64,000 nucleotides of DNA from Bacteroidales bacterium (GCA_030681475.1 JAUXWT010000055.1:68914-132913), one strand, 5' to 3'. Counted from the first letter of the stretch, positions 11,730 to 32,177 are shown. The notes: generated from the sequence alone by a model not told the origin. Made by a program: numbers and translations.

Positions 11730-11803
11730 TGACCCCGGAGGGATTCAAACCCCCAACCTGCTGATCCGTAGTCAGCTACTCTATTCAGTTGAGCTACGGG
11801 GCC
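11730..11803 (-). tRNA. tRNA-Arg (anticodon ACG)
   Basis: Reverse strand GGCCCCG TA GCTC...GCTGA-CTACGGA-TCAGC...GGTTTGAATCCC...CGGGGTCA folds as a cloverleaf; loop CTACGGA gives ACG. Confidence 0.92.
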
Positions 11804-12001: not shown

Positions 12002-13558
12002 ATGATAAGCGTAGGAATACAAAAACTTACCCCCGACGATTTCTACAGGATCCTTTTCATGAATGAAAAGATCCAACTCGCCCCTGAAGCTGTGGCAAAC
12101 GTAAAGGCAAATTTTGAGTTTTTGAAAGAATTTGCCAAAGGAAAGGTTATCTATGGCATCAATACCGGCCTCGGGCCGATGGCTCAATATAAGATCAACG
12201 GAAGTAACGAAATTCAGCTGCAATATAACCTTATCCGCAGCCACAGCGCCGGTTGTGGCACCCCCCTCCCCGAAATTTATGCCAAAGCCACCATGATTGC
12301 CCGGCTTAATACTTTCATGCTGGCCAAATCAGGAATCCACATCGAGGTGGTCGAGTTGCTTAAAGAGCTGATCAACAGGAACATCAACCCGTTTATCCCG
12401 GAACATGGAGGCGTGGGGGCAAGCGGCGACCTGGTGCAGCTTGCGCACCTGGCGCTTAACCTGATCGGGGAAGGAGAAATCTGGTACAACGGAAAACTGC
12501 AGCCCACGACCGAAGTTTTTCAGGTCGAAAATCTCACGCCGGTTACCATGCACATCCGCGAAGGGCTGTCGCTCATAAACGGGACATCGGCCATGACTGG
12601 CATTGGCATTGTCAATATCATACTTGCGAAAAACCTGCTTGACTGGGCCGTGCTTGCCTCTTCCATGATCAATGAGATCGCTGAGTCGTATGACGATCAT
12701 TTCTCCGATGGACTGAACAGGGTCAAAGCCCATTACGGGCAAAACCAGATTGCCCGGATGATGCGCGAGATCCTGAACGACAGCAAATTGATCCGCCGTC
12801 GCGACGACCACCTCTACAACGACAAAACAGTACAGGTCGAAGTGTTTACCCATAAAGTTCAGGAATATTATTCACTACGCTGCGTTCCACAGGTACTCGG
12901 CCCCATCCTCGATACCATCATCAATGCCAGGGAGGTGCTGATCAATGAGGTAAATTCTGCCAATGACAATCCGATCATCGACAACGAGGCTGAAAACGTA
13001 TTCCATGGCGGGAACTTCCACGGTGATTATGTGGCGCTTGAGATGGATAAATTAAAGATTGCCATCACGAAACTCTCCATGCTTGCCGAACGCCAGCTTA
13101 ATTACCTGATGAACGATAAACTGAACCAGAAACTTCCTCCGTTTGTCAACCTGGGCAAGTTGGGATTCAACCTTGGCATGCAGGGCGTTCAGTTCACCGC
13201 TGTTTCGACCGTTGCAGAGAATCAGACGCTCTGCTTTCCGATGTCCATTCACAGCATCACCAGCAACAACGACAACCAGGATATTGTAAGCATGGGCGCC
13301 AACGCAGCCATGATTGCCAAACGGGTGATCGACCACACTTATATTGTGCTATCCATTCACATGCTCGCCATCCTCCAGGCTGTTGACTACCTGGAGTTCA
13401 AACCAAGGCTTTCGACCTGTTCGGGGAAAAAATTCGGGGAACTGAGGAATATCGTGCCAAAATTCGTTGAAGACACGACAAAATATAAGGAAATAAAACA
13501 AATAGCTAATTATATACTTGGGAATAAATTGCAGTTCACCGTTGAAAGTGACAGGTGA
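12002..13558 (+). CDS. Aromatic amino acid ammonia-lyase (HAL/TAL family, flexirubin/aryl polyene-type)
   Basis: 'EHGGVGASGDLVQLAHLALNLIGEGE' Ala-Ser-Gly MIO motif; 'YGINTGLGPMAQYKI...QLQYNLIRSHSAGCG'; 'NSANDNPIID' and 'NFHGDYVALEMDKLKIAITKLSMLAERQLNYL'. Confidence 0.93.
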   Translation: MISVGIQKLTPDDFYRILFMNEKIQLAPEAVANVKANFEFLKEFAKGKVIYGINTGLGPMAQYKINGSNEIQLQYNLIRSHSAGCGTPLPEIYAKATMIARLNTFMLAKSGIHIEVVELLKELINRNINPFIPEHGGVGASGDLVQLAHLALNLIGEGEIWYNGKLQPTTEVFQVENLTPVTMHIREGLSLINGTSAMTGIGIVNIILAKNLLDWAVLASSMINEIAESYDDHFSDGLNRVKAHYGQNQIARMMREILNDSKLIRRRDDHLYNDKTVQVEVFTHKVQEYYSLRCVPQVLGPILDTIINAREVLINEVNSANDNPIIDNEAENVFHGGNFHGDYVALEMDKLKIAITKLSMLAERQLNYLMNDKLNQKLPPFVNLGKLGFNLGMQGVQFTAVSTVAENQTLCFPMSIHSITSNNDNQDIVSMGANAAMIAKRVIDHTYIVLSIHMLAILQAVDYLEFKPRLSTCSGKKFGELRNIVPKFVEDTTKYKEIKQIANYILGNKLQFTVESDR

Positions 13559-13596
13559 CAAGTGACAAGTAACAAGTGACAAATGACAAGTGATAG

Positions 13597-14325
13597 ATGA
13601 AAATTGCATTGGTTACCGGCGGTTCAAGGGGTATTGGAAGGGCGATTTCAGTCAGATTGGCTGAGATGGGTTTTTTCGTCCTGATCAACTACCACACAAA
13701 TCATCAGGAGGCATCAGTCACCCTGCAGCAGGTCAGGGAAAAGGGAGGCGATGGTGAACTGATTCAATTTGACGTCACTTCGCAGGATGAGATCGAAAAG
13801 GCGCTCGGAAAATGGCTTGCTGCCCATGAAGGCGCTTATATACAGGTATTGGTGAACAATGCCGGTATCCGCAAGGACGCTTTGGTGATGTGGATGAAAA
13901 ACGACGAATGGCACGATGTGCTCAACACGAACCTCCATAGTTTTCTTTATGTTACCCGGTTTCTCCTCAAGGATATGATCATCAACAAAATGGGGAGGAT
14001 CATCAATGTGGTCTCCCTCTCCGGACTGAAGGGACTACCCGGACAGGCCAACTATTCGGCCGCCAAAGCCGGCGTGATCGGAGCAACCAAGGCGCTGGCA
14101 CAGGAAATCGCCAAAAAGAAGGTGACCGTCAATGCCGTGGCGCCCGGTTTCATTCAGACCGACATGACCAAAGATCTCGATGAAGCCCAATTGAAAACAA
14201 TGATCCCCATGGGAAGATTTGGCTCCCCCGAAGAAGTCGCCGCCGTCGTTGGTTTCCTTGCTTCGGACGAAGCATCTTATATCACCGGGGCGGTTATTAA
14301 TGTCAACGGAGGACTTTATACCTAA
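13597..14325 (+). CDS. fabG: 3-oxoacyl-ACP reductase (SDR, FabG-like)
   Basis: 'VTGGSRGIGRAIS', 'NNAG', 'NYSAAKAGVIGATKALAQEIAKKKVTVNAVAPGFIQTDM'. Confidence 0.93.
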   Translation: MKIALVTGGSRGIGRAISVRLAEMGFFVLINYHTNHQEASVTLQQVREKGGDGELIQFDVTSQDEIEKALGKWLAAHEGAYIQVLVNNAGIRKDALVMWMKNDEWHDVLNTNLHSFLYVTRFLLKDMIINKMGRIINVVSLSGLKGLPGQANYSAAKAGVIGATKALAQEIAKKKVTVNAVAPGFIQTDMTKDLDEAQLKTMIPMGRFGSPEEVAAVVGFLASDEASYITGAVINVNGGLYT

Positions 14326-14404
14326 TGACGATTTACGAATTACAAGTAACGATTTAAAGGATACGATCTATGAATTTCACTATTTCACCATTTCGCTATT
14401 TAGC

Positions 14405-15622
14405 ATGAGTCGGGTCGTAATCACAGGCATGGGCATCTACTCCGTGATCGGGAAGAATCTCGCCGAGGTTGAGGATTCTCTGCGCCATGGAAGGTCAGGG
14501 ATCATATTTGATCCGCTCAGAAAGGAGATGGGATTCCGTTCTGCCCTTACCGGAATGGTCGAAAGGCCCCAGCTCAAAGGTGTACTCGACCGGAGAATGC
14601 GGGTCGGATTGCCCGTTCAGGGCGAATATGCATATATATCAACGCTTGAGGCGCTTAAAAATGCGGGGATCGATCAATCCTACCTGGATGCAAATGAGGT
14701 AGGGATCCTTTTTGGCAACGACAGTTCTGCTGTTCCCGTTGTCGAATCGGTTGATATCCTCAGGGAGAAAAAAGATACCATGATGATCGGTTCCGGATAC
14801 ATCTTTCAGTCGATGAACTCAACCGTTTCGATGAACCTTTCGGTGATCTTCAGGCTGAAAGGTATCAATTTTACTGTCAGCGGCGCCTGTGCGAGTGGTT
14901 CCCACGCCCTCGGCATCGGATACCTGCTGATCAAACAAGGACTTGCGGAGATGATCATCTGCGGTGGCGCACAGGAGATCAATCCTGAGTCAACAGCCAG
15001 TTTTGATGCACTCAATGCCTTTTCGATCAGGGAATCGGAGCCCACCAGAGCATCCAGGCCGTTCGACCGCGATCGCGACGGATTGGTTCCCAGCGGTGGC
15101 GCAGCCACTGTGATCATCGAAAGTTATGAATCAGCGATGAAACGTGGCGCCAAAATTTATGGCGAAGTGATCGGATACGGCTTCTCTTCGAATGGTGAAC
15201 ATATTTCCATGCCCAATGTCGAAGGTCCGGTTCGGGCAATGGAAAAGGCGATCCGGGATGCCGGGATCAGATCTTCAGAAATTGATTATATCAATGCCCA
15301 CGCAACTTCAACCCCGGCAGGCGACAGCAACGAGGCCAGTTCCATAGATATTGTTTTTGGCTCCTCAAGACCGCTTGTCAGCAGCACGAAATCAATGACC
15401 GGACACGAAATGTGGATGGGTGGCGCAAGTGAGGTGATCTACTCCACATTGATGATGAACAATAGTTTCGTGGCGCCGAATATCAACCTTGAAAATCCCG
15501 ATGATATCACCGCAAAACTGAACCTGGTCACAAAGTCAACCCCATATGAAATCAATGCATTCCTCTCCAATTCATTTGGTTTCGGAGGAACAAATTCTGC
15601 ATTAATTATCAGGAAAGTATAA
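14405..15622 (+). CDS. Beta-ketoacyl-ACP synthase (FabF-like), KS1
   Basis: Start at 14405 (MSRVVITGMGIYSVIG); Cys 'SGACASGSHALG', His 'NAHATST', His 'KSMTGHEMWMGGASE', 'SNSFGFGGTNSALII'. Confidence 0.93.
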   Translation: MSRVVITGMGIYSVIGKNLAEVEDSLRHGRSGIIFDPLRKEMGFRSALTGMVERPQLKGVLDRRMRVGLPVQGEYAYISTLEALKNAGIDQSYLDANEVGILFGNDSSAVPVVESVDILREKKDTMMIGSGYIFQSMNSTVSMNLSVIFRLKGINFTVSGACASGSHALGIGYLLIKQGLAEMIICGGAQEINPESTASFDALNAFSIRESEPTRASRPFDRDRDGLVPSGGAATVIIESYESAMKRGAKIYGEVIGYGFSSNGEHISMPNVEGPVRAMEKAIRDAGIRSSEIDYINAHATSTPAGDSNEASSIDIVFGSSRPLVSSTKSMTGHEMWMGGASEVIYSTLMMNNSFVAPNINLENPDDITAKLNLVTKSTPYEINAFLSNSFGFGGTNSALIIRKV

Positions 15623-15646
15623 TCATTCTTTTTTAATTAAAATCCT

Positions 15647-15654
15647 TATTTTTG
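15647..15654 (+). promoter_or_regulatory. Candidate -7 promoter element (TATTTTTG) before ACP1
   Basis: TAnnTTTG match in a 51-bp intergenic gap, with AT-rich upstream sequence. Confidence 0.5.
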
Positions 15655-15673
15655 CACCGGTTAATGAAAGACT

Positions 15674-15925
15674 ATGATGCAAAACGAGGAGATTATCAGG
15701 AAAATAAACCAGTTGCTGGTCGATGAAATAGAGATTGAAGCGGCACAGATAGCCCCTTCCGCCGACCTGAAAAAAGACCTCGGTATCGACAGTCTTGACT
15801 TTGTTGACCTGTTTGTGATCATTGAAAATAATTTCGGCTTCAAAATGAAGGCAGAAGAGATGACCGAGGTAAAATCACTACAGGATTTTTATAACTATAT
15901 CATCAATCGTATCAATCCAAACTAA
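15674..15925 (+). CDS. Acyl carrier protein (ACP1)
   Basis: 'DLKKDLGIDSLDFVDLFVIIENNFGFKM' phosphopantetheine Ser in DSL. Confidence 0.93.
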   Translation: MMQNEEIIRKINQLLVDEIEIEAAQIAPSADLKKDLGIDSLDFVDLFVIIENNFGFKMKAEEMTEVKSLQDFYNYIINRINPN

Positions 15926-15931
15926 AAACTG

Positions 15932-16846
15932 ATGTCGTCATGGGAAGGCAAAACCCGTGGAGGGGTTCTGGGATATAAAATATTTGTCTGGACCCTGAAG
16001 CACATGGGACTCCGCTTCGCCTATTTCCTGCTCTCTTTTGTTGTGATCTATTTCGTGGTCACATCAGGTAAAGCCTTTTTGGCCATTTTTAATTTTTATC
16101 ATATAATATTGAAATATAGCCGGTTTAAAGCCTTCTTCAGTATCTATGGCAACTATTACAGGTTTGGACAGATATTGCTGGATAAAGTTGCGATGCTGGC
16201 CGGTTTTCAACATAAATTCACCTTTGATTTTGAAGGCGAAGAGTTTCTCCGGCATATGGAAGATGGGGGATTGCTTGTAAGCGCTCATGTCGGAAACTGG
16301 GAAATTGCAAGTCAATTGCTCAACCGGCTCGGAAAACGAATCAACATTATTTTATTTGATGCTGAACATCAACGTATTAAAGGGTATTTATCGGATGTAA
16401 TGACGAACCGTAATGTCAACTTTATCGTGATCAGGGATGATTTTACACACCTTTTAGAGATAAAACAGGCATTGGCCAACAAAGAGATCATCGCCATGCA
16501 TGGCGACCGGTTTATTGAAGGAAACAAGACTGTCACCCTCGATTTTATGGGAAGGCCTGCTGCATTCCCCATCGGACCAGTGAACATGGCTGCCAAATTC
16601 AGGGTTCCGGTCTCTTTCGTATTTGCGGTAAAAGAAAGCAGCAGCCATTATCATTTTTATGCCACCCCCCTGCACCAGGTTCCTTTTACCACCAATATCA
16701 AAAACAAGGAAGAAAATTTTCGCAATGCATTGAAAATTTATATCAGCAAATTCGAAGAGATCCTGCAGAAATATCCGTTACAATGGTTTAATTATTACGA
16801 TTTCTGGGAACTTCCGGAGATCCGTATGTCTGAAATAAAAATCTGA
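15932..16846 (+). CDS. LpxL/HtrB-like lysophospholipid/lipid A acyltransferase
   Basis: 'LLVSAHVGNWEIASQLL' HX4E motif; 'HGDRF' and 'FPIGPVNMAAKFRVPVSFVF'. Confidence 0.88.
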   Translation: MSSWEGKTRGGVLGYKIFVWTLKHMGLRFAYFLLSFVVIYFVVTSGKAFLAIFNFYHIILKYSRFKAFFSIYGNYYRFGQILLDKVAMLAGFQHKFTFDFEGEEFLRHMEDGGLLVSAHVGNWEIASQLLNRLGKRINIILFDAEHQRIKGYLSDVMTNRNVNFIVIRDDFTHLLEIKQALANKEIIAMHGDRFIEGNKTVTLDFMGRPAAFPIGPVNMAAKFRVPVSFVFAVKESSSHYHFYATPLHQVPFTTNIKNKEENFRNALKIYISKFEEILQKYPLQWFNYYDFWELPEIRMSEIKI

Positions 16847-16848
16847 GG

Positions 16849-18207
16849 ATGCAGAAAAAAAGGCTTCTCTTCGTTTCAGCAAACCAGCATATAAATCCAT
16901 ACCCGGTTTATCCTTTGGGTATCTCCTACCTTCATACTTTTCTTCGTAACCGTCTGCCTCATTATACCATCAGGGTGTTCGATTTCAATCTCGATACCGC
17001 CGAGTCCTTCAAAAAAGAGCTGGAGGAATTTAACCCGGATTATATCGGTCTCTCTCTCAGGAACGTGGACGATGTGAATTTTTACAGCCAGGAGAGTTTC
17101 ATCAACGGGTACAGGAAAATCGTTGATATCATTCGTGAAACATCAAATTCCATGCTGATCATTGGTGGTTCCGCCTTTTCAATATATCCCAGGGAACTTT
17201 TTGAATATTTTAACCCCGAATACGGAATACACGGCGAAGGTGAAGAGAGCCTGTTCAAACTTCTGATTACCCTGGATCAGAGTAAACCGGATCTATCCAT
17301 TGATGGTCTTGTTTACCTTGCTGGCGGAGAGATACATGTCAATGGCCGTAAACACTTTATAAAAACTCCCGACCTTGATTTTGAGCCGGATCTGCTGGAA
17401 TTTTACTGGGATAAGGCGGGTATGGTCAATGTGCAGACGAAACGCGGATGCCCGTATCAGTGCATTTATTGTACCTATCCGCTCATTGAAGGTAGTAACG
17501 TACGCACGCTCGATCCCGGAAAGATCGTGCATACCCTCCGGCAACTTTACGAAAAGAATAATGTTGATTATGTGTTTTTCACCGATTCGGTGTTCAACAT
17601 CAGCAACAATTTTAATGTTGAGCTGGCTAAGATGATGATCGCCTCGAAACTTCCGGTTCGCTGGGGCGCCTATTTTTCACCGCACAATTTACCCCTGGAA
17701 AATTTGAAATTATTTGCCGAAGCCGGTTTGACCCATATCGAGTTCGGTACCGAATCGCTTTCGGATACCACGCTGAAAAAGTATGGTAAACATTTTGATG
17801 TGGATGAAGTAGTAAAGGTATCAGATTATTGCAACCAGACCAACGTTTACTTTTGCCACTTCATGATCATTGGCGGTTATGGTGAAACGGAGGCATCCAT
17901 CAATGAAAGTTTTGAAAACTCCAAACGGATAGAAAACACTGTTTTTTTTCCGTTTATCGGCATGCGGATCTATCCGGGCACACATCTGCATAAAATTGCG
18001 CTTGAACAAGGTATTGTTCGACCAACCGATAAATTGCTGGAACCCGTTTATTACGTTGCCCCGGAGATCAACTATGACACACTCAAAGAGCGTGCTGAAA
18101 AAACCGGAAGACGGTGGGTCTTCCCCGATGAAGACGTGGCAACAGCCATGAACCGCCTGCGTAACCGGAACCGTAAAGGATCATTATGGCATCATCTGAA
18201 GAAATAA
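16849..18207 (+). CDS. B12-binding domain radical SAM protein (lipid biosynthesis-type)
   Basis: N-terminal cobalamin-binding-like fold segment; 'TKRGCPYQCIYCTYP' CxxxCxxC radical SAM motif. Confidence 0.9.
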   Translation: MQKKRLLFVSANQHINPYPVYPLGISYLHTFLRNRLPHYTIRVFDFNLDTAESFKKELEEFNPDYIGLSLRNVDDVNFYSQESFINGYRKIVDIIRETSNSMLIIGGSAFSIYPRELFEYFNPEYGIHGEGEESLFKLLITLDQSKPDLSIDGLVYLAGGEIHVNGRKHFIKTPDLDFEPDLLEFYWDKAGMVNVQTKRGCPYQCIYCTYPLIEGSNVRTLDPGKIVHTLRQLYEKNNVDYVFFTDSVFNISNNFNVELAKMMIASKLPVRWGAYFSPHNLPLENLKLFAEAGLTHIEFGTESLSDTTLKKYGKHFDVDEVVKVSDYCNQTNVYFCHFMIIGGYGETEASINESFENSKRIENTVFFPFIGMRIYPGTHLHKIALEQGIVRPTDKLLEPVYYVAPEINYDTLKERAEKTGRRWVFPDEDVATAMNRLRNRNRKGSLWHHLKK

Positions 18208-18620
18208 ATATACCCCAGAAACCACCGATGGTGATGGTGGACAGGTTGGTTGAGACCACGGATAAAATCACGGTAACCTCATTCGTAATTCATGAAAACA
18301 ACATATTTTGTGAAAACGGAGAGTTCCGCGAACCAGGTCTGATCGAGAACATGGCCCAGACTGCTGCTGTAGGAGCCGGCGCTAAACCCGGGAATTCAGG
18401 CCGGAGTGCCCCTGAAGGATTTATCGGTGGGATCAGGAACCTGAGAATTGACGGATTTCCAAAGATCGGGCAGGAGATCATCACCCGTGCGACCATCCTG
18501 CATGAGGTATTTCAGGCCAACATCGTTCAGGGTGAAGTATTCTTGGGTGGCCGATTGATCGCCTCATGTGAATTGAAAATTTTCATATCTTGGCCGGCTG
18601 AATTGAAGGACGAGTCGTAA
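18186..18620 (+). CDS. Hot-dog fold 3-hydroxyacyl-ACP dehydratase (FabZ/ApeP-like)
   Basis: 'PPMVMVDRLVETTDKITVTSFVIHENNIFCENGEFREPGLIENMAQTAAVGAG'; overlaps the previous gene by 22 nt. Confidence 0.8.
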   Translation: MASSEEINIPQKPPMVMVDRLVETTDKITVTSFVIHENNIFCENGEFREPGLIENMAQTAAVGAGAKPGNSGRSAPEGFIGGIRNLRIDGFPKIGQEIITRATILHEVFQANIVQGEVFLGGRLIASCELKIFISWPAELKDES

Positions 18621-18649
18621 ACCATAAAACTTAATACAATCAATGCACT

Positions 18650-19045
18650 ATGGAAGAAAATCAAAACCCGGTATACAAAGATAAAGCTTACGGACAGTAC
18701 CGTGAACTCTCCTATTCATACCAGGAGGGTGGCAAATTTGAAAAAACCGTCGGCTTTCACGGCGAAGCCGACCGCCTGATATTACAGCAGGCATGGGACC
18801 TTTTCCATGAAAGGATTGAGGATGCCCGGCAGCGGGTCCTTGCCGGGAAAGTAAGTCCGGTTGTTTATTATATGGAAAAAAACCTGCTTGATCCGTTAAA
18901 TCTTTCGATGATGGCAGGAATATCAGTGTGGCGGGTTAAATGGCATTTTAAGCCAGGCGTTTTTAAACGGTTAAACGATAAAACGTTACAGAAATATGCC
19001 ACCGCTTTTAACATTAATATTGACGAACTGAAAAACGTTGAATAA
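18650..19045 (+). CDS. Conserved hypothetical protein, HTH-like C-terminus
   Basis: Co-directional, tightly spaced; 'LSMMAGISVWRVKWHFKPGVFKRLNDKTLQKYATAFNINIDELKNV'. Confidence 0.6.
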   Translation: MEENQNPVYKDKAYGQYRELSYSYQEGGKFEKTVGFHGEADRLILQQAWDLFHERIEDARQRVLAGKVSPVVYYMEKNLLDPLNLSMMAGISVWRVKWHFKPGVFKRLNDKTLQKYATAFNINIDELKNVE

Positions 19046-19059
19046 TTCAATCTGATATT

Positions 19060-20085
19060 ATGGAAACAACAAAAACGATCATTGATTATACACACCGCCA
19101 GGCAGGACATTGTGAAAGCGGCGCCACATCGAACCTGTTCAAATTCAACGGGTTGGAATTATCCGAGCCTATGGCGTTCGGAATTGGAAACGGATTGTAT
19201 TTCAGCTATATTCCGTTTCTTAAGATACAGTTCGCTCCCATGATCTCGTTCCGTAACTTGCCCAACACGGTTTTCAAGAGGTCAACGGTCTATATGGGTA
19301 TTGATGCCACGGTAATAAAAAAGATAAAAGACCCAAAAGAGGCCATGGAGATGCTTGACCGTAACCTGGAACAGGGAATTCCCACAGGTTGCCAGGTAGG
19401 TGTTTTTCAACTGACCTTCTTCCCTCCCGAGTACAGGATGCACTATAATATGCACAACCTGGTGGTTTTCGGTAAGGAGGGGAATATGTACCATATCAGC
19501 GACACCGTGATGGAGTTTCCGCAACTCCTTACCTATGAAGACCTTGTGCGTGTTCGCTATGCCAAAGGGGCCTTTGCCCCCCAGGGAAAAATGTACTGGA
19601 TCAATCACGCCATTGATAAACCCATTGATCTGAAACCGGCCATCATCATGGGTATTAAAAAGACCGTCAACGAAATGATCGGTATCCCCTTCCCGCTCAT
19701 TGGTGTGAAAGGATTGCGCTGGATGGCCCGTGACATTAAAAAATGGCCTAAAAAACATGGCAATGACAAGGCCTCCTTTTACCTTGGACAAATTTTACGC
19801 ATGGCCGAGGATTTTGGAACCGGCGGCGCCGGATTCCGGTATATTTACGGAGCATTTCTGAAAGAAGCCGGCGAACTTTTTAACAACCACCCGGAGTTGC
19901 TGGAGGCTTCGGATATGATGGGAAGGACGGCAAACAAGTGGCGTGAATTCACCTATATCGGAGCCCGTAACTGTAAAAACCGTTCAAAACCTGAGGAAGA
20001 TTACGGAACTCTGTCTGAAAAATTGATAGAGATCGCAAATGATGAAGAATTGGTTTATAAGAAACTTAAAAAAATCAAGTTTTAA
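19060..20085 (+). CDS. BtrH N-terminal domain-like/DUF4872-like protein
   Basis: 'HRQAGHCESGATSNLFKFNGLELSEPMAFGIGNGLYFSYIPF' BtrH-like N-terminus; TAATG overlap with the ABC ATPase gene. Confidence 0.75.
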   Translation: METTKTIIDYTHRQAGHCESGATSNLFKFNGLELSEPMAFGIGNGLYFSYIPFLKIQFAPMISFRNLPNTVFKRSTVYMGIDATVIKKIKDPKEAMEMLDRNLEQGIPTGCQVGVFQLTFFPPEYRMHYNMHNLVVFGKEGNMYHISDTVMEFPQLLTYEDLVRVRYAKGAFAPQGKMYWINHAIDKPIDLKPAIIMGIKKTVNEMIGIPFPLIGVKGLRWMARDIKKWPKKHGNDKASFYLGQILRMAEDFGTGGAGFRYIYGAFLKEAGELFNNHPELLEASDMMGRTANKWREFTYIGARNCKNRSKPEEDYGTLSEKLIEIANDEELVYKKLKKIKF

Positions 20086-20837
20086 TGTCAAGCAACCCCA
20101 TCATTGAGATCAGGGAACTGACAAAATTTTACAAAAACTCCGATGAACCAGCCGTTAACGCTATATCCTTAGATATTTTCGCGAATGAGATCTTCGGGTT
20201 GCTTGGACCCAATGGCGCCGGAAAGACCACCACCATTTCCATACTTTGCGGTTTGTTTCCGGCGACAAAAGGCCGTGTGACGATCGATGGCATTGACAGC
20301 CACACGGGCCTTGAAAAGATCAAGCAGATCATCGGAATAGTACCACAGGACATTGCACTCTACCCCACCCTGACCGGGCGTGAGAACCTCGCCTTCTTCG
20401 GTAATATGTATGGTCTCTATGGGTCAGAACTGCGCGGTAAGATCAACCATTACCTCAGTGAATTCGGGCTGGAGAAGCATGCCAACAAAACGGTGAGCAA
20501 GTACTCCGGTGGCATGAAACGCCGTGTGAATCTTATTGCCGGATTACTCCACGATCCCAAGATCCTCTTCCTGGATGAACCGACAGTCGGCATCGACGTG
20601 CAATCACGTGTGGTTATCCTGGAATATCTTAAAGCGATAAATTCAAAGGGAGTTACGATAATATATACCTCTCACTATATGGAAGAGGCGGAAAACCTTT
20701 GCACGAGAGTAGCAATCATCGATCGTGGAAATATCATCGCCAAAGGTAACCCAAAAGACCTTTTGGAAGGACATCCTGAATTCAAAAACCTGGAAAATAT
20801 CTTTCTCCATCTCACCGGTAAAGACATGAGGGACTGA
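20085..20837 (+). CDS. ABC transporter ATP-binding protein
   Basis: Walker A 'GPNGAGKTT', signature 'YSGGMKRR', Walker B 'ILFLDEP'. Confidence 0.96.
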   Translation: MSSNPIIEIRELTKFYKNSDEPAVNAISLDIFANEIFGLLGPNGAGKTTTISILCGLFPATKGRVTIDGIDSHTGLEKIKQIIGIVPQDIALYPTLTGRENLAFFGNMYGLYGSELRGKINHYLSEFGLEKHANKTVSKYSGGMKRRVNLIAGLLHDPKILFLDEPTVGIDVQSRVVILEYLKAINSKGVTIIYTSHYMEEAENLCTRVAIIDRGNIIAKGNPKDLLEGHPEFKNLENIFLHLTGKDMRD

Positions 20838-20839
20838 AC

Positions 20840-22141
20840 ATGAAAAAATATTTGTCGGTCTGCCGGAAAGAGATGTTGTTACTGTTGCGTGATAAAGCCG
20901 GGTTGTCCATGCTTTTTATCATGCCGGTTGCCCTGATCGTAATATCGTCGCTGATGCAGGAATTCGGATGGAACTCATTATCAAAGGATCCCTCCGTTCA
21001 GGTGCTGTTTGTAGATAATGACAGGGACAGTTTGGGTATCAAGATTAAAAACGGATTTATCGGTTCTGGTTCTTTCAAGGTAATTGACAGCCTGGCAAAT
21101 AGTCCACTTACCGCCATTACGGCAAGGGAGGCAGTCAAAAAAGGGGATTACCTTATTGCCATCGTAGTTCCCGAAGCAGCTACCCGTACCATGAGATCAA
21201 ATGTGCGGCTTTCTGTTGCAAAAACCCTGGCGGGTTTTGGTATCGGCGACCCTGTACTTTTGAACGGCATTGTTTTCAGGGATTCTGTCAATGTAACCAT
21301 ATATTTCGATCCGACGGTAAAAACAGCGTTTAAGAATGCCCTGATCAGTTCGGTGCGTGAAAATTATTACAAGATTCAGACCGACTGGGTTTTTAAAACA
21401 TTCAACGAGGAGATCACACTTCAGATGCCGATGTATAAACCACCCCGGGAGGCCTTCAACGAAGTGCTCAGATTCAGCGAGGAATTTCCCACCTACCGTG
21501 AAGTCGAGCTTATACCCAATACCACCCAGCACAACGTTCCCGCCTGGACTATTTTCGCCATGTTCTTCATCGTTATTCCACTGACACAGAGCCTGATCCA
21601 GGAACGTGAGGGAGGAAGCCTGTTCAGGTTGCTCACCATGCCTGTCTCTTATATGACACTGTTGATGGGGAAGGTAGGTGTTTATCTTGTCGTTTGTGTG
21701 GTGCAAACAGCCGCTATGCTCCTGGCAGGTGTGGTTCTACTGCCATTGTTCGGACTTCCCATGCTGGTTCTGGGAAATGATCTTCCTGCATTATTGCTGA
21801 TGACCCTTGTGGTGGCCATGGCTGCCGTAGGATATGGCCTGATGATCGGGACGATTGCCAAGACACATCAGCAGGCAGCAGCATTCGGCTCCATTTCGGT
21901 CATCATCCTGGCCGCGATGGGGGGATTATGGGTGCCAATATACCTGATGCCTCCCTTCATGAAGACCTTTTCCCTGATCAGCCCTTTGAACTGGGCAATT
22001 ACCGGGTATTACAGCATATTCGTGCGTGGAGGAAGTTTATGGCAAATCGCTCCGCAGGCGCTTAAATTGTTCCTGTTCTTTATTTCGACCGTCCTGGTTA
22101 CCGGGATATTCCACAAATATAAACACCCATTGAACATTTAA
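20840..22141 (+). CDS. ABC-2 type transporter permease
   Basis: N-terminal TM + large extracytoplasmic loop + C-terminal TM block; 'LWVPIYLMPPFMKTFSLISPLNWAITGYYSIFVRGG'; 2 nt after the ATPase gene. Confidence 0.9.
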   Translation: MKKYLSVCRKEMLLLLRDKAGLSMLFIMPVALIVISSLMQEFGWNSLSKDPSVQVLFVDNDRDSLGIKIKNGFIGSGSFKVIDSLANSPLTAITAREAVKKGDYLIAIVVPEAATRTMRSNVRLSVAKTLAGFGIGDPVLLNGIVFRDSVNVTIYFDPTVKTAFKNALISSVRENYYKIQTDWVFKTFNEEITLQMPMYKPPREAFNEVLRFSEEFPTYREVELIPNTTQHNVPAWTIFAMFFIVIPLTQSLIQEREGGSLFRLLTMPVSYMTLLMGKVGVYLVVCVVQTAAMLLAGVVLLPLFGLPMLVLGNDLPALLLMTLVVAMAAVGYGLMIGTIAKTHQQAAAFGSISVIILAAMGGLWVPIYLMPPFMKTFSLISPLNWAITGYYSIFVRGGSLWQIAPQALKLFLFFISTVLVTGIFHKYKHPLNI

Positions 22142-22143
22142 TT

Positions 22144-22557
22144 ATGGAACTTACCGACCGGAAAGAAATTGTTGTCAGGTTTTCAGAGGTTGATTCCATG
22201 CGGATCGTCTGGCATGGCAATTACCTCAAATATTTTGAGGATGGCAGGGAATCCTTCGGAACAAAATACAGTCTCGGTTACCTCGATGTTTATAAGCACA
22301 ACGTGATGATTCCTCTGGTGAAAATTACCTGCGACTATAAACGACCTTTGGAATACGGCGATATTGCTGTTGTGGAAACCCGTTTTGTTCCCAGTGAAGC
22401 CGCAAAGATTGTCTTTGAATATACAGTGCACCGCCAAAAAGATCAGGAAGTAGCCGCTACCGGTTCTTCAACGCAGGTATTCCTTACACCTCAAGGGGAG
22501 CTGTTGCTGACTGCCCCGGATTTCTTTAACAGATGGAAAAGCAAATGGGGCATTTAA
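22144..22557 (+). CDS. Acyl-CoA/ACP thioesterase (4HBT hot-dog)
   Basis: 'VRFSEVDSMRIVWHGNYLKYFEDGRESFG' 4HBT motif. Confidence 0.88.
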   Translation: MELTDRKEIVVRFSEVDSMRIVWHGNYLKYFEDGRESFGTKYSLGYLDVYKHNVMIPLVKITCDYKRPLEYGDIAVVETRFVPSEAAKIVFEYTVHRQKDQEVAATGSSTQVFLTPQGELLLTAPDFFNRWKSKWGI

Positions 22558-23741
22558 ACGCAGATGGTATGAAACCAGTTTATATTCTGAACGATAACAT
22601 GATAACCTCTCTTGGTTTTACAACTGCTGAGAACATTTTAGCCATCAAGAAAGGAACGATCGGGATCCGGACTGTCAACGATCCGCTTCTTTATCCCAAT
22701 CCCGTTCCGGTTTCGATCGTTAACGATGACCTGTTGAACGAGAGACTTGGTGAAGCCCTTGCAGATCATCATAAAACAAGTCCATCAGACGCTTTTACAC
22801 GTTTGGAGAAATTCTTCATCATCTCCATTCATGATGTATTGAAAAACAGTCCCGTTGAAAAGGGAGATCCAAGGACACTTTTAGTAATTTCAACAACCAA
22901 AGGCAACATCGACCTGCTCGAAGACCGTTTCAAATCAAAATTCAGTCACAAGAGGCTCTATCTATGGGAATTGGGCAGAGTTATCCAGCAGTTCTTTGGT
23001 TTTGTAAACATGCCTGTTATCGTCTCAAACGCCTGTATTTCTGGTGTTCTGGCCATCATAATCTCAGCCCGGTTTCTCCAATCAGGCGCCTTCGACCATG
23101 CAGTTGTAGCCGGTGGCGACATTGCAACCGAATTTGTCATCTCCGGCTTTCAATCCTTCCAGGCGCTTAGTCCCGATCCATGTAAACCATTTGACCTGAA
23201 CCGCACCGGGTTATCGCTTGGCGAAGGGTGCGGATCAATCGTACTTTCAATTCATCCAGATACTTCCAGGACACCGTTGGTCAGGGTATCAGGGGCATCG
23301 GTAAGCAATGATGCAAATCACATATCCGGTCCTTCCCGAACCGGCGAAGAACTCAGTTGGGCCATTAACCAGGCGATGGAACAGGCGAGGGTGAGTCCCC
23401 GGGAGATCAGTTACATTTCTGCCCATGGAACTGCAACACTATTCAATGATGAGATGGAGTCAAAAGCGTTGGAAAACTGTGAACTCTCAAATGTTCCGGT
23501 GAACAGTTTCAAAGGCTACTGGGGACATACACTCGGAGCCGCCGGCATCATCGAATCAGTTGCAACAATATCAACGCTCAGAAGTAATTATCTTTACCGC
23601 TCGGCTGGTTTTGACACCTTGGGTGTTCCTTCGCCATTGCGAGTGATCACCACAAACAGACCAGGCGAAGTAAATGCATGTCTTAAAACCGCATCCGGTT
23701 TCGGTGGGTGCAACGCTGCCATTATTTATCAGAAAGATTAA
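22533..23741 (+). CDS. Beta-ketoacyl synthase (KS2)
   Basis: 'IVSNACISGVLAI' Cys; 'SAHGTATLFNDEMESKAL'; 'FKGYWGHTLGAAGIIES'; 'ASGFGGCNAAIIY'. Confidence 0.9.
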   Translation: MEKQMGHLNADGMKPVYILNDNMITSLGFTTAENILAIKKGTIGIRTVNDPLLYPNPVPVSIVNDDLLNERLGEALADHHKTSPSDAFTRLEKFFIISIHDVLKNSPVEKGDPRTLLVISTTKGNIDLLEDRFKSKFSHKRLYLWELGRVIQQFFGFVNMPVIVSNACISGVLAIIISARFLQSGAFDHAVVAGGDIATEFVISGFQSFQALSPDPCKPFDLNRTGLSLGEGCGSIVLSIHPDTSRTPLVRVSGASVSNDANHISGPSRTGEELSWAINQAMEQARVSPREISYISAHGTATLFNDEMESKALENCELSNVPVNSFKGYWGHTLGAAGIIESVATISTLRSNYLYRSAGFDTLGVPSPLRVITTNRPGEVNACLKTASGFGGCNAAIIYQKD

Positions 23742-23742
23742 C

Positions 23743-24393
23743 ATGGACCGTATCATAACAGCCTACAGCCATATCACTGAAAACAAGGTCATCGTGAATG
23801 ACCGGCTCATATTCTATCAGGAAAATATTGTTAACTTTGCAGACTTTGTTAAAATCGTTTACAAGCAGGAAATGATCAACTATCCCAGGTTTTACAAGAT
23901 GGACGCCATCAGTAAACTTGGATTTCTCGCAGTTGAACTGGTTTTAAAGGAAAAAACAATTGCAGGATACCGCCCCGAAGCGGTGGGTGTGATCATGTCC
24001 AATTCAAGTTCAAGCCTTGATACAGACATTGCCCACAACGAAACAATCAAAGACCGTTCAAGCTATTTTCCAAGCCCCTCAGTCTTTGTTTATACATTGC
24101 CCAACATCATTATCGGGGAGGTTTGCATAAAAAATAAAATCAAAGGGGAAAATGCCTTTTTGATCTCCGAAGCATTTAATGGCAAACTGCTTTGCGATTA
24201 TGCTGATGAGTTGTTTGACAATAAACGGGTGGAAGCCTGTTTATGCGGATGGGTTGAAGTAATGGGGAACAATTGCAATGCCCTGGTGGCATTGGTCGAA
24301 ACTGCTGACAGAAGCGCTGATAGCTCGGGTTCCGGATTCAAACCGATGCTTTTTAATGCGGAGAACATGAATTTTATTATGAAACGTAACTAA
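23743..24393 (+). CDS. Half-size ketosynthase-like protein (degenerate)
   Basis: Start at 23743, 2 nt after the previous stop; 'FPSPSVFVYTLPNIIIGEVCIKNKIKGENAFLISEAF' resembles the KS N-terminal half; no HGT or GH motifs; ends at ~216 aa. Confidence 0.75.
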   Translation: MDRIITAYSHITENKVIVNDRLIFYQENIVNFADFVKIVYKQEMINYPRFYKMDAISKLGFLAVELVLKEKTIAGYRPEAVGVIMSNSSSSLDTDIAHNETIKDRSSYFPSPSVFVYTLPNIIIGEVCIKNKIKGENAFLISEAFNGKLLCDYADELFDNKRVEACLCGWVEVMGNNCNALVALVETADRSADSSGSGFKPMLFNAENMNFIMKRN

Positions 24394-24401
24394 CTGATAT
24401 T

Positions 24402-24656
24402 ATGGATGAATTGATTTTAAAACTAAAGAAAGAGGTCATTGAGCAATTAAATCTCGAGGAGACTACACCGGATGATATCGATCCTGATTCCCCATTATTT
24501 GGCGAAGGCCTGGGACTGGATTCAATTGATGCACTCGAACTTATCGTTTTACTGGAAAAGAACTACGGAATAAAGATAGAAGATCCCAAAGATGGAAAAA
24601 AAATCTTTTTCTCGATCCGTTCCATGGCAGAATACATCACGGAACATCAAAAATAG
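24402..24656 (+). CDS. Acyl carrier protein (ACP2)
   Basis: 'LFGEGLGLDSIDALELIVLLEKNYGIKIEDP'. Confidence 0.93.
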   Translation: MDELILKLKKEVIEQLNLEETTPDDIDPDSPLFGEGLGLDSIDALELIVLLEKNYGIKIEDPKDGKKIFFSIRSMAEYITEHQK

Positions 24657-24662
24657 AGCCCG

Positions 24663-25904
24663 ATGCCACAGCGGATTTTCATCACCGGATATGGCATCAT
24701 TTCATGTATCGGCAACAACCTTGAAGAAAATTTAACCTCCCTGCTGCAATCTGCACCGGGCCTTGGGAGGCTAAATCATGTCGAAACGATACTCAGGGAC
24801 GAACTTCTTGTCGGGGAGGTGCCAAAAACACTGGATGAACTTTTTATCTTGGCCGGAATAACTCCTGCCGAAGGTTACTCGAGAAATGCCCTTCTCGGAA
24901 TGATTGCAGCACGCGAAGCCGCTGTAAACAGCCGTCTGGAGTTGTACCCTGAATTGAAAACAGGATTGATCTCCGCCACCACCGTTGGCGGCATGGACCG
25001 TTGTGAACTCTATTACAACGATTTCCTCACCAATGATTCCCGCAACGCCTATATCGATGCATACGACTGTGCCGACAGCACCGAGAAGATTGCCCAAATG
25101 CTGGGAATATCCGATTTTGTGACCACCATCAGCACGGCATGTTCATCGGCTGCCAATGCCATCCTGCTTGGGGCGCGGATGATCCGTTCCGGTCGTCTTG
25201 ACCGTGTTCTGGCAGGAGGTTGTGAAGCGCTGACCAAGTTTCACCTGCTTGGATTCAATGCCTTGAAAATCCTTGACAAAGAGCCTTGCAAACCCTTTGA
25301 TCAGCAGCGTGCCGGTATCAACCTGGGAGAAGGGGCTGCATACCTTGTACTTGAGTCGGATGAGAGCCTTAAGAAAACCGGGAACCTGCCTATTTGCGAA
25401 CTGGTCGGCTGGGGCAACTCCTGTGAGGCTTTTCACCAGACGGCCTCCTCCCCCGATGGGATCGGCGCTTATCTTGCCATGAAAAAAGCGCTCGACTTGA
25501 GCGGACTTTCTCCCGATGATATCGACTATGTGAATGCCCACGGAACCGGAACCGACAACAACGACCTTTCGGAAGGCCGTGCCATTGAGAAACTGTTCGG
25601 AGCACGTATCCCGATGGTTAGTTCGACCAAACCGTTCACCGGGCATACCACCAGCGCAGCCGGCTCAACGGAGGCTATCTTAGCTATCCTGTGCCTGCAA
25701 CACCAGGTGATCTGGCCAAACCTGAATTTTAAGGACCGAATTCCGGAACTCTGCTTCCCCCCCGTTGATAAACTTTTGACAGATGTTCCTGTAAATACCG
25801 TCATGTCGAATTCATTCGGGTTTGGGGGAAATGATACGTCATTGATCTTTACGAAGGTCAATGCAAACAATGAAAACAGTGCAGGTAATGCAGACAATGT
25901 ATAG
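24663..25904 (+). CDS. Beta-ketoacyl-ACP synthase (FabF-like), KS3
   Basis: 'ISTACSSAANAILLG', 'NAHGTGTDNNDLSEGRAI', 'KPFTGHTTSAAGSTEAI', 'SNSFGFGGNDTSLIF'. Confidence 0.93.
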   Translation: MPQRIFITGYGIISCIGNNLEENLTSLLQSAPGLGRLNHVETILRDELLVGEVPKTLDELFILAGITPAEGYSRNALLGMIAAREAAVNSRLELYPELKTGLISATTVGGMDRCELYYNDFLTNDSRNAYIDAYDCADSTEKIAQMLGISDFVTTISTACSSAANAILLGARMIRSGRLDRVLAGGCEALTKFHLLGFNALKILDKEPCKPFDQQRAGINLGEGAAYLVLESDESLKKTGNLPICELVGWGNSCEAFHQTASSPDGIGAYLAMKKALDLSGLSPDDIDYVNAHGTGTDNNDLSEGRAIEKLFGARIPMVSSTKPFTGHTTSAAGSTEAILAILCLQHQVIWPNLNFKDRIPELCFPPVDKLLTDVPVNTVMSNSFGFGGNDTSLIFTKVNANNENSAGNADNV

Positions 25905-25929
25905 TTGCATTACTTTCATTGTCTGCATT
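25887..25929. repeat. Inverted repeat AATGCAGACAATG / CATTGTCTGCATT spanning the KS3 stop codon
   Basis: Perfect 13-bp arms at 25887-25899 and 25917-25929. Confidence 0.8.
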
Positions 25930-25955
25930 GCTTTCATTCAATAATTAGTTAACAG

Positions 25956-27014
25956 ATGGCATACATCAACGGCGTAGGCTTGATTTCTCCTCAAAAAACA
26001 GCAGAAACAAAAGAGTTCCTGTCTGAAATAATGGAGTACAAAGCAGATTATCTGAAGTGCATCGAACCACTTTACAGGCCATACGTCGATCCGATCCAGT
26101 CGCGGCGGATGAGCAGATTGATCAAAATGGGGATTGCTTCCGCCAAAATGAGTCTGGCCGATGCAGCTTGCACAATGCCGGATGCCATTATTACCGGAAC
26201 TGGTTTGGGAAGCGTTGAAGATACGGAGAAAATCCTGGGTGAGATCACCAAAGATGAGATGTTCCTGAACCCAACCCCGTTTATACAGTCAACCTACAAC
26301 ACCATCAGTTCGCAGGTGGCCATTCAGTTGAAATGCCACAACTATAATTCAACCTATGTTCACCGCACTTTCTCATTCGAAAGCGGCCTGATCGACGGGC
26401 TGATGCAGATCGAAGAACAAACGGCTGCCAATGTGCTGGTGGGCGCCATCGATGAGATGACGATGAATCACCTCCAGATCACCCGCCGGATTGGCCATTG
26501 GAAGATGGAGCCGGTGAACAACCTGACTTTGCGAGAGACCGGTACCCCAGGCGCGCTCGCCGGCGAAGGTGCAGCATTCTTTGTTTTAGGCAATGAACAG
26601 CATGAATCTACCTACGCCGAACTGAAAGATGTGGCGACCTGCATCAACCTTGGCGGCTCCTTCAAACCCGAAATATTTTTACCTGATTTCCTTGAAAAAA
26701 ACGGACTCTCAGCCTATGACATTGACCTTGTTATCCTTGGCGTAAATGGTGACGTAACCTGCGATCCGATCTATATTCAGTTTGCAGACCAGTTTTTCCC
26801 CGGAAAAGCCCTGGCATGGTACAAACACCTTTGCGGCGAATATCATACGGCAACCGGTTTCGGGCTTTATATTGCAGCCAATATCCTCAAGCGGCAAATA
26901 TACCCCGGGATTTTGCATTTAAATAATATCAAACCCGGAAAACTCAAACACATCCTGATATACAACCAGTTCAGGAATGTGAACCATTCATTTATAGTGG
27001 TGAGGGGGTGTTGA
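25956..27014 (+). CDS. Ketosynthase-like chain-length factor (catalytically degenerate)
   Basis: KS fold remnants ('GIASAKMSLADA', 'LAGEGAAFFVLG', 'KHLCGEYHTATGFGLYIAANIL') but the Cys-loop reads 'RTFSFESG' and the HGT position reads 'VNGD'. Confidence 0.8.
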   Translation: MAYINGVGLISPQKTAETKEFLSEIMEYKADYLKCIEPLYRPYVDPIQSRRMSRLIKMGIASAKMSLADAACTMPDAIITGTGLGSVEDTEKILGEITKDEMFLNPTPFIQSTYNTISSQVAIQLKCHNYNSTYVHRTFSFESGLIDGLMQIEEQTAANVLVGAIDEMTMNHLQITRRIGHWKMEPVNNLTLRETGTPGALAGEGAAFFVLGNEQHESTYAELKDVATCINLGGSFKPEIFLPDFLEKNGLSAYDIDLVILGVNGDVTCDPIYIQFADQFFPGKALAWYKHLCGEYHTATGFGLYIAANILKRQIYPGILHLNNIKPGKLKHILIYNQFRNVNHSFIVVRGC

Positions 27015-27053: not shown

Positions 27054-27099
27054 CCCACCCCCGACCCCTCCCTGCAGGCAGTGAGGGGTCGGGGGTGGG
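27054..27099. repeat. Perfect 17-bp inverted repeat (CCCACCCCCGACCCCTC-N12-GAGGGGTCGGGGGTGGG)
   Basis: Arms 27054-27070 and 27083-27099 with a partial third copy 'ATCCCGGGGGTGGGT' at ~27110. Confidence 0.88.
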
Positions 27100-31091: not shown

Positions 31092-32177
31092 ATGCTTGAG
31101 CCTGTCGAAAAAATTTTCGAAAAAAAATATCTCACCAAAGAAGATATTATCAATCTTCTCAATACAAGCGGCAAAGAACGCCTGTCCCTTTTCCAGAAAG
31201 CAAAAGATGTTAAATCTTCCATCCTGGGTAAAAAAGTTTATTTCAGGGGATTGATCGAATATTCAAATTATTGTAAAAAAAACTGTTATTACTGTGGAAT
31301 CCGTGCCGGCAACAGCCGGTATTCAAGGTATCGTATGACCGATGACGAGGTGCTGGAAGCCGTTAAATATGCTTATATTAATGAATATGCTTCCATCGTG
31401 ATCCAATCCGGGGAACAGACCAACAAAGCCTTCATATCAAAAATAGAATCGCTTCTGCGGAGAATTCATCAGCGAACCGGTGGAAATATCCATGTAACCC
31501 TTTCATTGGGTGAACAGACCGAAGAAACCTACCTGCGATGGTTTGATGCCGGTGCACACCGGTATCTCCTGCGCATTGAAGTGTCCAATCCCGGATTATA
31601 TCTGAAACTCCACCCGAACAACCAGCTTCATGGTTACAACCGCCGACTGGATGCCTTGGCATCACTACGTAAAACAGGGTACCAGGTAGGTACCGGCGTA
31701 ATGATCGGGTTGCCCTTTCAAACAGTTTCAGACCTTGCCGATGACCTGATCTTTTTTCGCCAACTGGACATCGATATGGCTGGCATGGGTCCTTATATCG
31801 AACATGTTGACACCCCGTTATACAAATATCGCGATGAACTGTTACCCTTGAAAAACCGGTTTGAACTGTCATTGAAAATGGTTGCCATTTTAAGGATCAT
31901 GATGCAAAATATAAACATTGCCGCCACAACAGCCATGCAGACCATCGACCCTCAGGGACGGGAAAAAGCCCTGATGGTTGGCGCCAACGTGATCATGCCC
32001 AACCTTACGCCTGTAAAATACCGTCAGGATTATCTTCTGTATGAAAATAAACCCTGTCTCGACGAAGAAGCCGAGGAGTGTAAAAGCTGCCTGGAAGCCA
32101 GAATCCATATGGCTGGTGATGAAATCGGTTATGGGGAGTGGGGAGATTCAAAACACTATTCTAACAGGACCCTTTGA
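31092..32177 (+). CDS. hydE: [FeFe]-hydrogenase maturation radical SAM protein HydE
   Basis: 'EYSNYCKKNCYYCGIRAGNSRYSRYRMTDDEVLEA' CxxxCxxC and HydE/BioB-like architecture; 'MAGMGPYIEHVDTPL'. Confidence 0.88.
   Translation: MLEPVEKIFEKKYLTKEDIINLLNTSGKERLSLFQKAKDVKSSILGKKVYFRGLIEYSNYCKKNCYYCGIRAGNSRYSRYRMTDDEVLEAVKYAYINEYASIVIQSGEQTNKAFISKIESLLRRIHQRTGGNIHVTLSLGEQTEETYLRWFDAGAHRYLLRIEVSNPGLYLKLHPNNQLHGYNRRLDALASLRKTGYQVGTGVMIGLPFQTVSDLADDLIFFRQLDIDMAGMGPYIEHVDTPLYKYRDELLPLKNRFELSLKMVAILRIMMQNINIAATTAMQTIDPQGREKALMVGANVIMPNLTPVKYRQDYLLYENKPCLDEEAEECKSCLEARIHMAGDEIGYGEWGDSKHYSNRTL

Follow-up and report, generated by a model that had tools for sequence, protein, structure and literature searches.

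Flexirubin is a chemotaxonomic marker, and its biosynthesis has been described with darA and darB. The flexirubin clusters of C. pinensis and F. johnsoniae begin with the tyrosine ammonia-lyase (TAL) FlxA and comprise the ketoreductase (KR) FlxB, several ketosynthases (KS), a dehydratase (DH), acyl carrier proteins (ACP), a thioesterase (TE) and the ligase FlxY, while C. pinensis has darAB at another locus (PMC3992019). A similar cluster of aryl-polyene type in the Bacteroidales, that of Bacteroides xylanisolvens, has been reported to be syntenic with the C. pinensis cluster (PMC12940132) and is likened to the present locus by description. Here, we analyse an operon located at positions 12002-27014 of a 64,000-nucleotide stretch (the window) from a Bacteroidales bacterium (GCA_030681475.1, JAUXWT010000055.1:68914-132913), which is part of contig C54 in a draft genome of 111 contigs (4.24 Mb, 98.7% complete). 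Compared by description with the flexirubin clusters, the operon and its genome share FlxA in first position, FlxB, the several KS, DH, ACP, TE and FlxY. However, darA and darB are absent from the whole genome, a radical S-adenosylmethionine (SAM) gene of the family TIGR04072 is present where other Bacteroidales have FlxJ, and FlxY and export genes are placed in a second cluster together with extra lipid genes. We hold with reasonable, though far from complete, confidence that the operon is a flexirubin-type aryl-polyene core without the dialkylresorcinol half, in which the radical SAM protein is proposed to be a C-methylase.

Gene classes were assigned with Pfam and NCBIfam profiles, using the curated cut-offs of NCBIfam, and FlxA-bearing loci of the same order were annotated by BLAST against the window proteins. 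FlxA (12002-13558; PF00221; NF053541, 821 bits against a cut-off of 700), FlxB, a 3-ketoacyl-ACP reductase (13597-14325; NF053542, 395 against 340), a DarG-family protein of 131 amino acids (18650-19045; NF053536, 119 against 70) and DarH, a BtrH-related acyltransferase (19060-20085; NF053550, 400 against 300; PF14399 and PF16169), all score above their cut-offs and stand in a shared gene order, which indicates a known system rather than an unknown one. The common order is TAL-KR-KS1-ACP1-LpxL, followed by the radical SAM gene, FlxJ or nothing, and then (DarA-DarB)-DH-(DarG-DarH)-(ABC)-TE-KS2-hKS-ACP2-KS3-KSl, where hKS is a half-ketosynthase and KSl a KS-like gene. For example, the locus L127 shows exactly the gene order of the window, L154 repeats that order with darAB at the place of the radical SAM gene, which it does not have, and L150 carries the radical SAM gene and darA-darB together but neither the ABC pump nor TE. 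The preliminary description of this DNA regarded the genes as a self-contained cluster for an aryl-polyene-like lipid. Starter activation encoded elsewhere and the absence of DarA and DarB agree with part of that description, but the operon is a flexirubin-type core, neither self-contained nor a new pathway standing by itself. It matches gene for gene the darAB-bearing operons of other Bacteroidales (L150, L154, L151 and L152). Gene-for-gene synteny with a chemically characterised cluster had been named there as the mark of an ordinary locus; the synteny exists, in agreement with the spirit of that mark, but the matching darAB-bearing loci are not from chemically characterised strains. The closest named relatives are uncultured metagenome bins, most of which bear the label Bacteroidales or Bacteroidetes, and several relatives stem from metagenomes of lake water, for example that of Lac Pavin. 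One record titled Alphaproteobacteria (L185) has the same operon, with a radical SAM protein 75% identical to that of the window, and is probably mislabelled or a mixed bin.

Neither the operon nor the 12 kb on each side of it encodes DarA, DarB or a ligase, as the preliminary description had stated for the operon itself. The contig reaches 69 kb beyond the window on the upstream side and 6.6 kb on the downstream side, and therefore the operon is not truncated. Where darA-darB usually lie, between DH and LpxL or the radical SAM gene, the window has an intact, closed slot, and so do nearly all of the 80 loci returned by a search with the radical SAM protein; two of the 80 carry darA/B. The genome-wide profile search that had been suggested as a check shows that DarA and DarB are absent while the ligase FlxY is found: the best DarB match in the genome reaches 59 bits against a cut-off of 550, no DarB occurs at E<=1e-60 in any of the five genomes of the family that were sampled, and DarA gives only noise (E > 0.01) across 31 genomes from the family, of which 25 are of good quality. 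The absence of these usual flexirubin genes had been pointed out before and holds, but it is no peculiarity of this locus, since FlxA is present in 89 of the 393 genomes of the order (three fragments included) and 49 of those 89 are without DarB; fewer genomes (14) have DarH without DarB. The suggestion of a non-resorcinol product is reasonable in view of this absence. A DarB-bearing clade is the sister group of the window's family in the FlxA tree, although the rooting is unsure, and a loss of darAB with retention of DarGH would fit such a tree.

As had been supposed, starter activation is encoded elsewhere. FlxY, a 4-coumarate ligase, lies on another contig of this genome, C21 (NF053551, 704 bits against a cut-off of 520), and is present in 24 of the 25 good-quality genomes of the family and in 26 of all 31. 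Truncation of the assembly, considered as a cause of the missing ligase, was rejected, since the contig goes on far beyond either end of the operon and FlxY lies on C21. This gene adjoins an ACP gene and a second DarG-DarH pair, whose DarH is over the cut-off and whose DarG is below it. The final 17 bases of contig C105 are the first 17 bases of C21, and the join completes an ABC-2 permease; likewise, a single 3-hydroxyacyl-CoA dehydrogenase gene spans the end of C17 and the start of C105. From these contig ends, C17-C105-C21 would form a single second cluster, and relatives support this, for in G200 and G348 the second-cluster genes directly follow the TAL operon on one contig and end in DarG-DarH-ACP-FlxY. 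The second cluster also contains a ketosynthase III (KSIII), two crotonases, a KS, an ACP, an acyltransferase, several radical SAM genes, a glycosyltransferase, an MMPL exporter, a CrtI-like gene, a PaaK-like ligase and others. The arrangement ECH1-ECH2-KSIII-KS-ACP on C17 suggested a beta-branching (HMG-synthase) cassette, an idea that finds no support, as the HMG-synthase profile gives 37 bits against 244 and the KS keeps its Cys. Between a radical SAM gene and a methyltransferase gene on C105 lies a gene for a 597-amino-acid protein (L140, 8454-10247) with no NCBIfam match and only one, sub-threshold match in Pfam.

The B12-binding radical SAM protein (16849-18207, plus strand as the whole operon; TIGR04072, 420 bits against 360) occupies the slot of FlxJ. 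Among the 52 clusters in which this slot is readable, 21 have the radical SAM gene, 10 a methyltransferase and none both (Fisher p 0.003). The 10 slot methyltransferases tested all belong to the FlxJ family (NF053543, 493-635 bits, four of them over the cut-off of 560), and no FlxJ-type gene was detected among the 80 loci of the radical SAM search. The next-best NCBIfam families are BzaD (TIGR04385), with 196 bits against a cut-off of 450, and tryptophan 2-C-methyltransferase, with 109 bits; BzaD is a methyltransferase of the benzimidazole pathway to the B12 lower ligand (PMC8123684). The closest solved structure by profile is the tryptophan C2-methyltransferase TsrM (5.8e-52; PDB 6wte/6wtf), which matches in sequence and fold over nearly the whole length. 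TsrM is also the best fold match of the predicted model (pLDDT 88), with TMq 0.88 against 0.65-0.74 for the next enzymes, at about 19% identity in the fold search. The CX3CX2C motif is shared, its C201, C205 and C208 being invariant, and R71, the equivalent of TsrM Arg69, which lies under the cobalamin (PMC8992657), is invariant in 29 of 29 sequences. The ring methyl of C. pinensis flexirubin is derived from methionine (PMC3992019), and FlxJ presumably makes it; the simplest reading is therefore that the radical SAM protein supplies an equivalent C-methyl group. That is, judging from sequence and model, we propose that it C-methylates the aryl starter or the polyene in place of FlxJ. The preliminary description listed the gene but missed this likely meaning. 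In several relatives (L131, L132, L189-L191, L193, L194, L197 and L244), the LpxL-like and radical SAM parts form a single protein of about 760-780 amino acids.

Several points weigh against the interpretation of the operon as a whole. Glu273 of TsrM, which ligates the unique iron of its cluster (PMC8992657), is replaced by valine in the TIGR04072 family (Val248 in the window enzyme), and thus the polar mechanism of TsrM need not apply. The family also scores with non-methylating relatives (AprD4). The mutual exclusion of the radical SAM gene and FlxJ is not significant under phylogeny control, where the independent pairs are too few. Furthermore, DarH is kept although its presumed acceptor is absent, and no chemistry is known for any locus of this kind. 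The literature on the chemical structure of aryl-polyene lipids yielded nothing useful.

With the radical SAM protein as a putative C-methylase, the pathway could run as follows. FlxA would deaminate tyrosine to p-coumarate, which FlxY would activate, and KS1-KS3 with the chain-length factor (CLF)-like partner, KR, DH and the two ACPs would extend this starter to a polyene. The TIGR04072 enzyme would methylate a carbon of the aryl ring or the chain, instead of FlxJ. DarH and the LpxL-like acyltransferase may then hand the acyl group to an acceptor other than dialkylresorcinol, and export may be the task of the operon's ABC-2 pump and the second cluster's MMPL exporter. The enzyme activities, the site of methylation, the acceptor and any pigment are all predictions here. 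In a bolder version, TIGR04072 would methylate aromatic carbon without oxygen, in the manner of TsrM and BzaD, and would take the place of FlxJ in anaerobic Bacteroidales. In the window's family, DarH would then esterify the polyene not to dialkylresorcinol but to a new lipid from the adjacent, radical-SAM-rich cluster, and the product would be a membrane pigment of a class not yet described; we regard this version as conceivable but doubtful.

About half of the FlxA-bearing Bacteroidales genomes are without DarB, and the annotation 'aryl-polyene/flexirubin' consequently does not imply flexirubin. The exchange of FlxJ and the B12-radical SAM gene in one slot offers a concrete and testable function for TIGR04072, which has so far been named only by its lipid-cluster context. 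If this function is true, the methylation of aromatic carbon by the B12-radical SAM class could extend to lipid pigments.

Could DarH, then, act without DarA and DarB by acylating a new headgroup supplied by the second cluster, with its KSIII of the StlD/DarB family in place of DarB? The second cluster carries its own DarG-DarH-ACP-FlxY set and, in G200 and G348, adjoins the TAL operon without a break, and the KSIII is enriched in DarH-positive, DarB-negative genomes (11 of 14, against 7 of 43 that have both DarH and DarB; p 4e-5), always together with DarH. However, these counts are phylogenetically clustered, leaving three independent pairs under phylogeny control, and the StlD/DarB-related KSIII itself (C17, L007 5379-6497; homologues L309-L325) retains Cys, while the catalytic His and Asn are gone in the homologues aligned. 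It is thus unable simply to perform the reaction of DarB and, from these residues, is unlikely to catalyse any decarboxylative condensation. Its candidacy as a hidden DarB was rejected on the same loss and on the DarB score given above. A replacement of DarAB outright by the second cluster is also weakened, as DarB and the second cluster occur together in four f98 genomes and the phylogeny-controlled pairs are too few. We therefore consider the headgroup explanation unlikely.

It has also to be asked whether the chain, through the action of the radical SAM protein and the second cluster, ends up in a polyunsaturated or ladderane-like lipid, in which the tyrosine-derived starter would be a minor or a different part. 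NCBIfam names TIGR04072 'rSAM_ladder_B12, lipid biosynthesis', and the radical SAM genes, CrtI-like oxidoreductase, MMPL and PaaK-like ligase of the second cluster are of the kinds listed for the Kuenenia and Desulfotalea clusters, which have been proposed for ladderane or polyunsaturated fatty acid lipids (PMC2649909). Likened by description, those clusters combine type II fatty acid synthase genes with radical SAM, CrtI-like, MMPL-like and PaaK-like genes, but no TAL start is described there (PMC2649909). On the other hand, the CrtI-like, MMPL, glycosyltransferase and FlxY genes are also present in clusters of the same group without the extra radical SAM genes, and hence belong to the common flexirubin-type set. 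Moreover, a TAL gene lies within the fetched stretch in 47 of the 80 loci of the radical SAM search, a set that includes no anammox locus. We regard a ladderane-like product as unlikely. Least probable is an ordinary flexirubin pathway with DarA and DarB lost in an assembly gap, for although the genome is a 111-contig draft and an otherwise complete operon retains DarG and DarH, the companions of darAB in other loci, the noise-level DarA matches across the family, the absence of DarB from the five sampled genomes and the closed slot in the window and nearly all related loci speak against it.

The flexirubin-type core consists of 17 co-directional, tightly packed genes, with intergenic gaps of -26 to +79 bases, 15 of the 16 being below 60 bases. 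The direction, the packing and the listed genes had been described correctly, and the Pfam and NCBIfam profiles bear out the enzyme class given for each listed gene, but the count had been 16, with the DarG gene overlooked. KS1 (14405-15622, at the FlxC position), KS2 (22533-23741) and KS3 (24663-25904), all matching PF00109 and PF02801, retain Cys-His-His in an alignment of the five ketosynthase-like genes. The last gene (25956-27014; PF13723) has Thr, Gly and Glu at these positions, and is thus taken as the CLF-like partner. The half-ketosynthase (23743-24393; weak fabF match) consists of the N-terminal half only, has no catalytic residues in the alignment and is separated from KS2 by 1 base. 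In several relatives KS2 has about 580 amino acids and no separate half-ketosynthase was found, which is consistent with a fusion of the two. ACP1 (15674-15925) matches PF00550, and ACP2 (24402-24656) belongs to the PRK09184 family (NF006617, 86.7 bits against 70). KS3 is PRK09185-like, with 295 bits for a PRK09185-type model, below the cut-off of 407. We take an ACP of the former type and a KS of the latter type to be marks of ape clusters, which make aryl polyenes of the E. coli/Vibrio type.

The remaining genes are the LpxL-like acyltransferase (15932-16846; PF03279, 41 bits), a hot-dog 3-hydroxyacyl-ACP dehydratase that is FabZ-like (18186-18620; weak FabZ match of 28 bits, position conserved in homologous operons), the ABC transporter ATPase (20085-20837; PF00005), the ABC-2 permease (20840-22141; PF12698) and the 4HBT thioesterase (22144-22557; PF13279; TIGR00051, 70.9 bits against 68.7). 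The predicted DarG model (pLDDT 85) gave no match at E 0.001 in a fold search, and its C-terminal half contains a helix-turn-helix. Superposed on domains of the Cro/C1 type, this part fits to about 1.8-2.3 angstrom across some 60 columns. A helix-turn-helix protein inside a biosynthetic operon, usually paired with DarH, could be either a regulator or a scaffold.

A tRNA gene (11730-11803, minus strand) lies about 200 bases upstream of the operon, with base composition unchanged there. About 40 bases past the last gene, a 22-nucleotide inverted repeat (27054-27099; 95% complementary, 2-nucleotide loop) is a possible terminator, although a T-run is absent after the repeat. Further downstream, a HydE-like gene (31092-32177) was recognised by eye and, together with the B12-radical SAM genes, suggests that the host probably has an anaerobic lifestyle.

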